From: Gracilinema caldarium DSM 7334
Lineage (GTDB): Bacteria; Spirochaetota; Spirochaetia; Treponematales; Breznakiellaceae
NCBI RefSeq assembly: GCF_000219725.1
Contig: NC_015732.1
Location: 682,001-746,000 of the forward strand
Reading direction: 5' to 3'
Length of the DNA stretch: 64,000 nucleotides
A program made the translations under genes and the position numbers. Shown piece after piece: positions 23,821 through 28,979 of the stretch. The notes under the pieces are model-generated. The model did not search any database, was not told the origin of the DNA, and worked only from the letters and a program-made list of their open reading frames with translations. Position 1 is the first letter of the stretch. Each line of letters starts with the position of its first letter.

Positions 23821-23919
23821 GCATGTATAATTTCAACATGGTGAGATGTTAACTATACCTTATACTATTCTTGTAGCAACATTACTTACACAATAGAAAA
23901 TAACCATATTGATGAACCC

Positions 23920-24493
23920 ATGGTACCAGTGGCAGACTGTATTGTCTGTGCTGCCGGCGCATCCCGACGTAAACATATGCCCACTGGGAGATGAACGAAG
24001 AACCATGGCTCGTCGATGCCGCAGTTTTCTCCGCTCTGAATGCTGGCTGCAGAGTCCTGCTTGTTACGGGTTTCCGGGGCGATGAACTGGAATTCCGCTA
24101 TACCCAATGGCCTGGTGTGCTTGTAGTCCGAAATGAGAACTGATACAGAGTCCATGGTTTTTTATCGTTCATGGAGACATGCCCCTGATCCAGGCTGGCT
24201 GGTATACAAAACAGCTTCATAGAATGACCGAAAATAACATCAAGACTTCCATTCCCATCACAATACGGCCTGTGTATAGATCCCTTGTAGACCGAATATA
24301 GGAGCAGGAGCAGGCTCTACAAGCTTCCAGCTCTATCCAGGGACGCCACCTGCAGGTACAGCGGGTTATCCCTGGACACCCGGTGCTTTTCTCAGCCACT
24401 ACCATTCCGCTCATCGCACAAGCTCCTCAAGGCGATTCCCTTACATCAGTATTTGCCGGGTGCTAGGTTATTACTATTGAAACTGAGGATGAA
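23920..24493 (+). pseudogene. Broken MobA/MocA-like nucleotidyltransferase
   Basis: Conserved pieces of a MobA-like NTP transferase are spread over three frames. VADCIVCAAGASRR (the nucleotide-binding N-terminus) begins at ATG 23920 and stops at 23992. PWLVDAAVFSALNAG and VLLVTGFRGDELEFRY follow in a second frame from 24003. IVHGDMPLIQAGWY through GHPVLFSATTIPLIAQAP lie in a third frame, interrupted by two TAG codons, one at 24464 directly before VITIETEDE. About 20-25 expected residues after the N-terminal motif are also missing. Such genes usually serve molybdenum cofactor or selenate/molybdenum hydroxylase systems; none remains here. Confidence 0.85.
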
Positions 24494-25204
24494 TTGGTTA
24501 TACAGGATATTGATACGCTGGAATCGTACATCAGAGCCCTTATATCTGTGGCACCTTATGAAACGAATACCACGCTCCTTTGTCCAGCAACGCAGAAAGC
24601 TCGACAGTATCCCGATGAAGTAGCCAGATGTAACCGTTCAGCCCGCCTTATAACCGGAATGCAGGGTTTAGGTAAGACAACCCTGCTGCACCGTACAACC
24701 TTTCATCAACTCATCAGACTTTTACAAAAGGAGGATCTGCACACAAGCCTCTTTATCATGATTTCTCAAGTACAAACCTTGCGCGGCCCCGATGGGAAGG
24801 CCCTTGGTTTTACTGTAGAAACGTTTTATCATGAACCTTCGAGAAACCTTTCCTTTTTTTCACAGCCCCTTTGTACAACTGAGGAAACTGCAGCTCTTAG
24901 TAATTCTGTCAAACTTGGTCGATATGTCTTCTTTCCCGAAGTTTTTACAAAGCTTAGCACCTGGTTAGCTATGGAGTTTTCAAATCAGTATACTAATCTG
25001 TATCTCTTTATCGATGAACTGGGTATACTGGAACTTAACAAGCAGCAAGGATTATGGCCACTTTTTGAACGTATAGCTCTAAACCAATTTGAGGGTCTTG
25101 AATCAATCGAACTTGTCTGTACGGTGCGCCAGGACCGGTGTACTATGCTTAAAACCTATTTACAAAAACACGGATATAAGGTGACCATAACCGAACTGAG
25201 CTGA
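24494..25204 (+). pseudogene. THEP1-like NTPase, 3' remnant continuous with the broken MobA-like gene
   Basis: The frame runs directly on from the last MobA motif (TEDELVIQDIDTLESYI) without a stop, so this was probably one fusion protein or two joined genes. The second part has a Walker A loop GMQGLGKT and a Walker B-like LYLFIDELGILEL, the pattern of THEP1-type nucleoside triphosphatases. The only in-frame start near its beginning is a TTG inside the MobA-like tail, with no ribosome-binding site. The ATPase domain itself looks intact, so a shortened protein is possible, but its upstream partner is destroyed. Confidence 0.6.
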
Positions 25205-25537: not shown

Positions 25538-26002
25538 ATGAGAAGGACCGATCGGGAACTTACTGAGCTGCATGAAATCTATCATATCCTCGACAAATCG
25601 GATGTTCTTCATCTTGGCCTTTGGGATGGGCATGAAGTATATGTGGTTCCCCTAAATTATGTCAGGATTGGGGATGCCCTCTATTTTCATTCGGCTCAGG
25701 AAGGTCGTAAGGTTGATGTACTGAACCGGAACCCCCGCATCTGTTTTGAAGTTACCGGGGCTCATCATATCGATCCAGGATCTCGAGGCGCCGATTGCAC
25801 GACACACTATGAATCGGTTATTGGCTGGGGAACTGTCAACTTTGTTACCGATTACGATAAAAAGTATGAAGTGCTCTGCGCATTAAACCGGAAATTTGGC
25901 TCTCCTTCAGATAAACTCCCCGAACAGGTCGTTCAAAAGACAGCAGTTGTTGAAATCAGTATAGTAAAATTAACCGGCAAGGCTAACCGGGGGAGCATGT
26001 AG
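25538..26002 (+). CDS. NimA-like pyridoxamine 5'-phosphate oxidase-fold flavoprotein
   Basis: A 154-residue split-barrel protein of the pyridoxamine phosphate oxidase superfamily. The pattern MRRTDRE at the start, YVVPLNYVRIGDALYFHSA, GRKVDVLNRNPRICFEV and the late SVIGWGTVNF fits the NimA/5-nitroimidazole reductase-related group, which binds FMN (or haem in some members). These small proteins are thought to handle reactive or toxic small molecules, but the physiological substrate is usually unknown. TTTGGAG lies upstream of ATG 25538. It is transcribed alone after a repeat-rich leader. Confidence 0.85.
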   Translation: MRRTDRELTELHEIYHILDKSDVLHLGLWDGHEVYVVPLNYVRIGDALYFHSAQEGRKVDVLNRNPRICFEVTGAHHIDPGSRGADCTTHYESVIGWGTVNFVTDYDKKYEVLCALNRKFGSPSDKLPEQVVQKTAVVEISIVKLTGKANRGSM

Positions 26003-26022
26003 GGAAGGGGGGTACGACTTCC

Positions 26023-26056
26023 TATGAATGCTTTGCATTTATGAATGCCTTGCATT
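26023..26056. repeat. Tandem 17-base repeat, each with an AATGC-N3-GCATT dyad
   Basis: TATGAATGCTTTGCATT (26023-26039) is followed directly by TATGAATGCCTTGCATT (26040-26056), one mismatch apart. Each contains the inverted repeat AATGC-N3-GCATT. The second copy ends in the -35 box of the promoter at 26050-26078, as an operator pair would. Confidence 0.7.
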
Positions 26057-26140
26057 AAGGTCCCCAAAGCAGTATACTAAAATCAGTTGCGGGCCACAAT
26101 TGCCTGCAGCCTGGTGCGTTCCCAGCAGGGAACGTTTTAT
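26050..26140 (+). ncRNA. Candidate small RNA unit: orphan promoter plus terminator hairpin
   Basis: TTGCAT (26050-26055), a 17-base spacer and TATACT (26073-26078) form a good promoter with predicted start near 26085. Hairpin GCGGGC/GCCTGC follows, then CGTTCCC-AGCA-GGGAACG (26117-26134) followed by TTTT, a compact terminator. The transcript would be about 55 bases, or about 90 if it runs to the second terminator at 26149. No convincing protein start with a ribosome-binding site is inside. It resembles no RNA family I can name. Confidence 0.45.
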
Positions 26141-26148
26141 ATAGAACT

Positions 26149-26175
26149 GGCGCCCACAGGGGCGCCTTTTGTTTT
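26149..26175 (+). terminator. Second terminator hairpin, GGCGCCC stem with T-run
   Basis: GGCGCCC (26149-26155) and GGGCGCC (26160-26166) form a perfect 7-base stem with loop ACAG, followed by TTTTGTTTT. It lies 15 bases after the first hairpin. Confidence 0.85.
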
Positions 26176-26294
26176 ATGTAGCCGGTACGGCGTAGTCCAG
26201 ACATGTATGAGACCTTCAGCGAGCGGCGCCCTGGGGCTTCTGTGCTGCAGTACGCTTTGCCCAGCAGATTTCCCCTGCCACATGGTACACCTTT

Positions 26295-27374
26295 TTACAC
26301 TGCCTCTATTTCTTCCTCTAGGTTTTCTTCCATATTATTGATAACGAACCAGTTTCGCTTAGACCGGGCTATAGCCACCAGACTTAACATGACAGGAACT
26401 TCCACCAGCACTCCTACCACAGTTGCCAGGGCCGCTCCAGAAGAAAGCCCGAAGAGACTTACCGCAACTGCTACTGAAAGTTCAAAAAAATTAGAAGCCC
26501 CAATCATGCCCGAAGGAGCTGCGATTTCATAGGGGATCTTAAGGAGTTTAGAAGCTCCGAATCCCAGAAAGAAGATAAAATAGGTTTGGATGATGAGGGG
26601 GATAGCTATGAGCAAAATGGCCAGAGGATTTGAAAGAATGGTTTTCCCCTGAAACGAGAAGAGGATTACCAGCGTTAAAAGAAGCCCTGCTTCGGTAATA
26701 CCGTTAAAATAGTTGATGAAGGTTCCCTCAAACCAGACGAGCCCCCTGCGTTTTACCAGGAATGATCGGGTCAGATATCCGACTCCAAGAGGTATAACAA
26801 CAAAAAGCACCACCGAAAGAACTAATGTATCCAGGGGAACCTGTACATTAGAAACACCCAGCAGGAATGCTACGATCGGAGTAAAGGCAAAGAGGATGAC
26901 CAGGTCATTGACAGCGACCTGAACCACTGTATAAGCCGGATCACCGTCGGAAAGGTAACTCCAGACAAACACCATTGCCGTGCAAGGAGCTGCGCCGAGC
27001 AGCACCGCTCCGGCTAAATATTCGGTGCTGAGATTATCGGGAATAAAGGGCTTAAAGATCACTTTCAGGAAAAGCCATGCAAATATATACATGGTGAAGG
27101 GTTTGATAAGCCAGTTCACCACCAGGGTGATAAGGAGGCCCTTGGGTTTTTTACCCGCATTTACAATACTTTTAAAATCAACCTTAAGCATCATGGGATA
27201 GATCATGAGCCAGATAAGGATTGCGACCGGAATGGAAACCCGGGCATATTCAAAACGTCCCAGCGTTTCTGGAACGATTGGGAACAATACCCCAATCGTC
27301 ACCCCCAGGGCAATACAGAGTGCTACCCATACCGAAAGATATTTTGCAAAGAAGCTGATTCTCTTTTCCGACAA
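26295..27374 (-). CDS. acr3: Arsenite efflux transporter, ACR3 family
   Basis: An inner-membrane protein of 359 residues with about ten membrane segments that exports arsenite by a proton-coupled mechanism. The key motif GAAPCTAMVFVWSYL carries C131, the conserved arsenite-site cysteine, and the conserved glutamate lies in ITEAGLLLTLVILF. The start is TTG at 27374, supported by GGGAGG 7 bases upstream. No arsR, arsC or arsD lies beside it, so it is a solitary resistance gene. It is distantly related in fold to the BASS transporter at 6958. Confidence 0.93.
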   Translation of the reverse strand: MSEKRISFFAKYLSVWVALCIALGVTIGVLFPIVPETLGRFEYARVSIPVAILIWLMIYPMMLKVDFKSIVNAGKKPKGLLITLVVNWLIKPFTMYIFAWLFLKVIFKPFIPDNLSTEYLAGAVLLGAAPCTAMVFVWSYLSDGDPAYTVVQVAVNDLVILFAFTPIVAFLLGVSNVQVPLDTLVLSVVLFVVIPLGVGYLTRSFLVKRRGLVWFEGTFINYFNGITEAGLLLTLVILFSFQGKTILSNPLAILLIAIPLIIQTYFIFFLGFGASKLLKIPYEIAAPSGMIGASNFFELSVAVAVSLFGLSSGAALATVVGVLVEVPVMLSLVAIARSKRNWFVINNMEENLEEEIEAV

Positions 27375-27551: not shown

Positions 27552-28979
27552 TTATTCCCAGGGGAATAGCTCGCCTCCTGCCAGCCAGTCCACATACTGT
27601 TGGGCGGTACGGGGCGAACGGCCATTAAACCACTTTTCCCAGCGGAGCGCATTTTGCCGGAACCGTTCCCGATCAGATTCAGTTGTTAAAAGTCCCCGAC
27701 GTTCCGCTATGGCTTCTGCTATAGCGAGGTATTCTTCCTGATTCGGCGCGGTAAAGACAACAGTGACACCAAAGCGGTCCGCCAGGGAAAGCTGCTCCTG
27801 CATCGTGTCAAAGGCCCGGACATCACCTGTGGTGAGGGCCTCGGCGGCCTGGGCGGCGGTTGGCCGGTCTGCAAAGTGTTCCTTTACAAGGTGCCTGCGG
27901 TTGCTGGTGGCATAGATTACCACATTGGCCGGCCGCCGCTCCAGGCCGCCCTCGAGCAATGCCTTAAGACCCGTAAAGGTGTCATCGGTAGCTTCAAAGG
28001 AAAGGTCATCGATAAACAGTACAAATGTAAGCCCCCGGCCGGAGAGGGTTTCCGCAATCTCTTCAAAGTGCATTAGATCCCGCTTCCGGACCTCTATCAA
28101 TTTAAGTCCCCGATCCGCAAAGGCCCTGCAGACCGCCTTCACGGTGGCCGATTTTCCCGTTCCCCGATCCCCATAGAGGAGCATATTATTAGCACTTTTC
28201 CCTTCGACAAAACGGCGGGTGTTTTCTATTACCACCGATCGTTGCTCTTCATAACCAGAAAGATCATCAAGGGCAATAGGATCTTCATGTAAAACGGGAT
28301 ACAAGGAATACTGTGATGGTCCTTTGTGGCTTGATTGTTTCCATTGTTTCCAGATAAAAGCATGGTGTTGTCCCAGGATCCCTGCTCCATGAGTGCGAAT
28401 AAAGTCTCCCAATTCGGTAATGCGAGATGACCAAGGGGTATGAGCCGGTAGGACCCTATGGGGTTCTCTGGAATCATTGTGGGTAATAAAGAGATTCTGA
28501 GGGGATGTTAAAGCGGGACCTGCAAAGAAGGCGACTGTATCGGTCAAATCTTTCAGTGACAGCCCAGCCAAATCATAAAGTCGGTCGAGATCGGCTTGAG
28601 CAAGGGTGGCCAGTTCCAGTGAGAGTTGTTGCACCGGGTGACGTTCTAGGGCTAAAGTCAGGACATTTTCGTCCTGTAGCACCAGGTCTGCGAGGATTGT
28701 ATACAGGTCTAAGTTCTGGTAAGAGGTAAGGTGTATAACTTTTGTAATGGATACGAGGGTTTCTAACAATTCGGCCCAGATCTGCACCAGGCTTCTTTTC
28801 TGAGCTAACGAAAGGGGCTCCACAGTTTTAGTGCCGTGGTCATGTTTTTCAAGAAGGGGGATGAGACTTTCACAGAGTTGTTGTAATTTTTGTATGAGCC
28901 TATGTTGATGAATACCCCGAAAAAAGGTAAGGCTATCCAGGCTGAGTAACCACTGGCTTAATTGTTCAGTTCGTATCAT
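27552..28979 (-). CDS. DUF815-family AAA ATPase
   Basis: A 475-residue ATP-binding protein. The N-terminal 240 residues are mainly helical and not recognisable. Residues 245-470 form the DUF815 ATPase: Walker A GDRGTGKS (270-277), Walker B VLFIDDLSFE (about 315-324), sensor-like VIYATSNRRHL and an HFADRP stretch, followed by a helical lid. Proteins of this family are widespread and their cellular role is still unclear. It is upstream of acr3 on the same strand but separated by 177 bases with its own promoter signals. Function unassigned. Confidence 0.9.
   Translation of the reverse strand: MIRTEQLSQWLLSLDSLTFFRGIHQHRLIQKLQQLCESLIPLLEKHDHGTKTVEPLSLAQKRSLVQIWAELLETLVSITKVIHLTSYQNLDLYTILADLVLQDENVLTLALERHPVQQLSLELATLAQADLDRLYDLAGLSLKDLTDTVAFFAGPALTSPQNLFITHNDSREPHRVLPAHTPWSSRITELGDFIRTHGAGILGQHHAFIWKQWKQSSHKGPSQYSLYPVLHEDPIALDDLSGYEEQRSVVIENTRRFVEGKSANNMLLYGDRGTGKSATVKAVCRAFADRGLKLIEVRKRDLMHFEEIAETLSGRGLTFVLFIDDLSFEATDDTFTGLKALLEGGLERRPANVVIYATSNRRHLVKEHFADRPTAAQAAEALTTGDVRAFDTMQEQLSLADRFGVTVVFTAPNQEEYLAIAEAIAERRGLLTTESDRERFRQNALRWEKWFNGRSPRTAQQYVDWLAGGELFPWE

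Follow-up and report, generated by a model that had tools for sequence, protein, structure and literature searches.

A candidate lineage-restricted small RNA with its own promoter in Gracilinema caldarium and related spirochaetes

Hfq-type trans-acting small RNAs (sRNAs) share a layout consisting of an own promoter, a structured 5' part, an AU-rich single strand next to a hairpin, and an intrinsic terminator. The spirochaete family to which the hot-spring species Gracilinema caldarium belongs includes free-living members as well as members living in the termite gut, and to our knowledge few sRNA families have been described from treponeme-like spirochaetes. Literature searches in open papers revealed neither a description of an RNA such as the one reported here nor an sRNA family for this spirochaete family. 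Passages of two large ncRNA surveys name Spirochaetes once, as a sampled phylum (PMC8632094), or hold no mention of spirochaetes (PMC11109978).

The window, i.e., the whole stretch of 64,000 nt that was analysed, corresponds to positions 682001-746000 of a genome of 3,239,340 bases in a single contig. The candidate small RNA lies in a gap with a pyridoxamine-oxidase-like gene on one side and a convergent SBF-family transporter gene on the other. The features of the locus, in window coordinates, are as follows:

25538-26002, + strand: pyridoxamine-oxidase-like gene (PF12900)
26023-26056, + strand: tandem pair of 17-base repeats, each with an AATGC-N3-GCATT dyad, extending over the -35 box; candidate operator, this species only
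26050-26055, + strand: putative -35 box TTGCAT, 3/6 to consensus, with the TTGnnn position kept in most of the 11 homologues
26073-26078, + strand: putative -10 box TATACT, spacer of 17 nt, from the promoter scores of the 11 loci
26085-26174, + strand: predicted small RNA of ~90 nt, both ends predicted; core 26085-26143 matched by covariance models R1 and R2
26086-26110, + strand: hairpin P1, 9 bp (26086-26094 with 26102-26110; loop 26095-26101)
26116-26135, + strand: hairpin P2, 8 bp, TTTTATATA, consensus GCGUYCC ... GGRRCGY; a sequence-conserved hairpin-plus-T element
26135-26143, + strand: conserved UUUUAUAUA, its first U paired in P2 and the remainder single-stranded
26149-26174, + strand: P3, predicted intrinsic terminator with T-rich tail; hairpin-plus-T element TTTTGTTTT at 26149-26166, sequence not conserved
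26295-27374, - strand: SBF-family transporter gene (PF01758), the putative "arsenite exporter" of the first-pass annotation
27552-28979, - strand: DUF815 AAA ATPase gene (PF05673), with rnf-like genes beyond

The small RNA shares the Hfq-type layout, but differs in that no Hfq gene was found in this genome (0/1), while 5 of 14 control genomes gave a match. The RNA, being conserved and encoded in a genome in which Hfq was not detected, provides a concrete handle on the use of regulatory RNA in these bacteria. A comparison of the window, the element and ten homologous loci with Rfam yielded nothing at or above the gathering score, which agrees with the first-pass annotation, where no family could be named. 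The alphaproteobacterial suhB/MmgR sRNA (RF00519) was rejected as a candidate; only the copy in genome G062 came near it, at 26.5 bits and thus below the gathering score of 41, with no such match in the window copy and 13.3 bits in G019. The G062 copy resembles suhB/MmgR in having a hairpin, a U-rich stretch, a GC-rich terminator and a long U tail, but the single-stranded CUCCCUAGACUU core of the latter is missing here; on these alignments, the likeness is one of layout only. The small SRP RNA (RF00169) is a stand-alone non-coding RNA of similar size, and 6S RNA (RF00013) also stands alone as a non-coding RNA, but the structures of both are unlike that of the window's small RNA. SRP RNA was matched only elsewhere in the genome, at 232125-232223. 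For 6S RNA, no match was obtained in the genome at E ≤ 1, with matches in 6 of 14 control genomes; it may be absent from this genome or too divergent. The window RNA is very probably a real ncRNA, and we judge it to represent a putative new, lineage-restricted sRNA family.

BLAST of positions 25990-26200 against 58 genomes, own genome included, detected homologues in G002 (E 3.9e-24, covering 26068-26174 at 83% identity), G024 (E 1.5e-8) and G001 (E 7.8e-8). Covariance model R1, made from these three cores and that of the window (26085-26143), was run over 145 family genomes and returned, besides its four training copies, seven new strong ones in G003, G019, G058, G071, G062, G124 and G063 (E 5e-19 to 6e-10). 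Since the latter were absent from R1 training, they constitute a true test. Model R2, built from all 11 copies, matched 15 of 195 family genomes at E ≤ 0.01, with strong copies in 11 (66.9-76.8 bits) and four others at 24.6-29.2 bits. The covariance search in related genomes, named in the first-pass annotation as a check, was thereby carried out, with copies of at least 66.9 bits in 11 of 195 family genomes. The remaining 184 genomes were without a strong match, and the small RNA would therefore be dispensable. The covariance model allows annotation of the small RNA by anyone.

Searches at wider range returned known copies as their only strong matches, both order-wide (390 genomes; 15 matching, 10 strong) and phylum-wide (392 genomes; 8 matching, 3 strong). 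A pattern scan of the whole collection gave seven matches, five of them known copies (G002, G019, G024, G062, G124); the two others, from Eubacterium (25.8 bits, P1 lacking) and Bacteroidetes (23.0 bits), were taken as chance. Weak matches of R1 (L029-L043; 18.2-29.3 bits) and of R2 (L029, L031, L044-L051; 22.9-29.2 bits) were left out, and several of those of R2 were without a proper P1, P2 or UUUUAUAUA. The model searches scored 13-37 first-look candidates per genome and used stricter filters, which limits claims of absence elsewhere. Of 20 family genomes in which the models gave no strong copy, 14 had DUF815, and an unfiltered scan of these 14 loci, one per genome, revealed no RNA (best 10.9 bits); absence at those 14 sites is therefore real. 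A plasmid search gave no match, and the RNA core had no match in viral contigs.

The RNA strand at 26083-26178 has a calculated folding energy of -47.8 kcal/mol (z = -4.84), with none of 200 shuffles being as stable, and the calculated fold of each of the 11 transcripts is more stable than those of its letter shuffles (z -3.1 to -8.4). In the alignment of the 11 copies, which was fitted to the structure and hence leans towards it, mean pairwise identity was 66% and standard pairs made up 97.8% of 181 paired cells, versus 38-55% when the structure was slid. Two-sided changes occurred in 10 of the 17 pairs (30 such cells), giving a covariation score of 0.534 versus 0.252 ± 0.029 for shuffled alignments, a value reached by none of 500 shuffles. 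RNAalifold, applied unaided to the same alignment, arrived at nearly the same structure (16 pairs), and covariation of P1 was already visible in a MAFFT alignment of four copies. G-U accounted for 22 of the 181 pair cells and would become A-C if read on the opposite strand; the + strand is therefore the RNA.

P1 carries two-sided changes in 8 of its 9 pairs, with 99% of cells paired among the 11 sequences. Its loop of 7-9 nt has a consensus of about C-R-U-A-A-U-Y-Y and varies among copies, reading CACAAUU in the window and CAAAAUUUU in G063. In P2, 96.3% of cells are paired, two of the eight pairs show two-sided change and four never vary. UUUUAUAUA is present in all 11 copies with at most two changes each. 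P3 is replaced by unrelated hairpins in relatives, e.g., a longer one in G001 and G003, and T-rich sequence mostly follows its position, least so in G019. From the alignments, P3 is taken to be an ordinary, replaceable terminator. The two hairpin-plus-T elements that the first-pass annotation had read as terminators are present at 26116-26135 and 26149-26166; of the first, the hairpin itself was borne out but not its role as merely the end of the RNA, because P2 is conserved in sequence together with UUUUAUAUA, by which measure the two are part of the conserved core and more than the RNA's end.

GTG or ATG frames open before P2 in the window and in G002, G003, G063, G071 and G124, the codon not being kept in the others, and P2 loop lengths differ by single bases among copies. 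The 11 transcripts were found to have no start codon in common that is preceded by a ribosome-binding site, in keeping with the earlier statement that the locus has no protein start with such a site; a small protein from this locus appears unlikely.

Upstream of the core, the sigma-70-like promoter of the window matches the consensus at 8 of 12 positions, so that "near-consensus", as the first-pass annotation put it, was an overstatement, the -35 box having only 3 of 6. The promoter scanner needs at least 4/6 in the -35 box and hence did not list that of the window. The best -35/-10 pairs before the 11 cores summed to 97 matches, versus 70.8 ± 3.1 and a maximum of 83 for letter-shuffled upstream pieces (500 shuffles). 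The -10 box ends 5-9 bases upstream of P1 in the 11 copies, from which we infer that P1 forms the 5' end of the transcript. In the window, the 5' end would lie 7 nt after the -10 box and the 3' end at the U tract of P3; an alternative 3' end may be located at ~26139, after P2. The first-pass reading of an orphan promoter driving a short non-coding RNA with terminators at its end was supported, with conservation and covariation in 11 genomes. There is strong reason to regard the structure as being under selection on the + strand, as most likely non-coding and as having its own promoter.

The explanation that we favour, with fair though not high confidence, is an independent sRNA gene of ~90 nt encoding an Hfq-independent trans regulator. 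Transcription from the sigma-70-type promoter would start directly at P1, and the transcript would fold into P1, then P2 with UUUUAUAUA, then a swappable terminator hairpin. Regulation would take place in trans without Hfq, the exposed P1 loop being the pairing site and P2-UUUUAUAUA serving in stabilisation or as a dock for protein. We put P1-loop pairing forward only tentatively. The variation of this loop, the presumed seed, among copies and the 184 family genomes lacking a strong match count against the explanation. When four genomes were searched for target sites with the P1-loop complement GGGATTATGG, 43 matches were obtained, versus 3 with the pattern reversed, both counts including the RNA loci. 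The seed sites read (30 loci) were mostly inside reading frames, with no gene start common to the genomes; the excess probably reflects coding bias. One site in G124 is at the start of what is presumably a phosphofructokinase gene.

The main rival to P1-loop pairing is protein binding through P2-UUUUAUAUA. Here, the RNA would bind a protein, for titration or docking, instead of pairing with mRNA, with the P2 stem, UUUUAUAUA and the P1 loop as sites. This would fit the retention of both the sequence and the structure of P2, as seen in its four invariable pairs, the near invariance of UUUUAUAUA and the failure to find an Hfq gene in the genome. We consider it unlikely, seeing that no known protein-binding family fits, with no 6S match and no Rfam match at the gathering score, and that no series of CsrB-type GGA loops was seen in the 11 sequences.

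The RNA could also be a cis element of the neighbouring arsB/DUF815/rnf-like genes, either as an antisense RNA to their 3' end or by interfering with it, as it points at DUF815 and/or rnf-like genes in 9 of the 11 carrier genomes. The neighbour labels are putative, from resemblance to window proteins or from general background, except those of the PF05673 and PF01758 proteins of the window. On the 3' side of the RNA, and convergent to it, are the SBF transporter and then DUF815 in the window, G002 and G003, DUF815 and then rnf-like genes in G001, an rnfB-like gene directly in G019, and DUF815 and then a Jag/YidC-like region in G063 and G124. One same-strand gene comes first in G062, followed by rnf-like genes, and in G071, followed by DUF815 and rnf-like genes. 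The RNA has unrelated neighbours in G058, and the contig ends beside it in G024. A role in cis is improbable, given that the opposite gene differs among carriers, being the SBF transporter, DUF815, an rnfB-like gene or, in G062 and G071, replaced by a same-strand gene, that other genes or a contig edge are found in G058 and G024, and that vertical descent alone also gives conserved synteny. The conserved neighbourhood is consistent with vertical inheritance of a single ancestral locus. Because the gene order beside the RNA varies among carriers, the SBF transporter is no fixed partner of the small RNA; the proposed arsenite link is weak, the exporter-like gene being a direct neighbour in the window, G002 and G003 (3 of the 11 genomes) and not seen next to the RNA elsewhere.

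That there is no RNA gene at all, and that back-to-back terminators between convergent genes coincide with a chance promoter-like sequence, is highly improbable and seems largely refuted already, for although two terminator-like hairpins do lie between convergent genes, the strongest covariation is in P1, which is no terminator, the promoter boxes are conserved in position, and the RNA is kept despite different neighbours in G058, G024 and G062.

Returning to the favoured reading, an sRNA gene acting in trans, the tandem dyads would probably add a repressor switch over the -35 box in this species only. The 17-mers, at 26023-26039 and 26040-26056, are identical at 16 of 17 positions and contain one AATGC-N3-GCATT dyad each (26027-26039 and 26044-26056); these, the -35 box inside the second repeat and the 17-nt spacer were all found where the first-pass annotation had placed them. 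Its view of the dyads as part of the system was not upheld, with the best direct repeat in the other ten upstream regions (15-21-base spacing) reaching at most 12/17, versus 16/17 in the window. The dyad AATGCNNNGCATT occurs at five genome sites, two of them in tandem at the small-RNA locus; the other three exact sites differ in the centre and are partly inside genes, revealing no regulon. Viral contigs held no match to the tandem dyad. In this species, the tandem 17-mers may represent a repressor site of recent origin that covers the -35 box. It is conceivable, if doubtful, that the RNA founds a family of Hfq-independent regulators in this spirochaete family, in which an ancestral RNA by an rnf-like region would have kept P2-UUUUAUAUA as a fixed protein dock while its 5' seed loop drifted with its targets, the promoter being rewired by the new tandem operator in G. 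caldarium.

Two minor observations concern the surroundings of the locus. In several relatives, the DUF815 AAA ATPase gene adjoins rnf-like genes, which may point to a connection in function. Upstream of the RNA, at ~23870-25204 (+ strand), the window contains what appears to be an eroded gene for a fusion of a nucleotidyltransferase-like part and an NTPase, the frames of which are broken by stops; only a 236-aa C-terminal frame (PF03266) is still open, and the counterpart in G002 (L053) is an intact frame of 472 aa.
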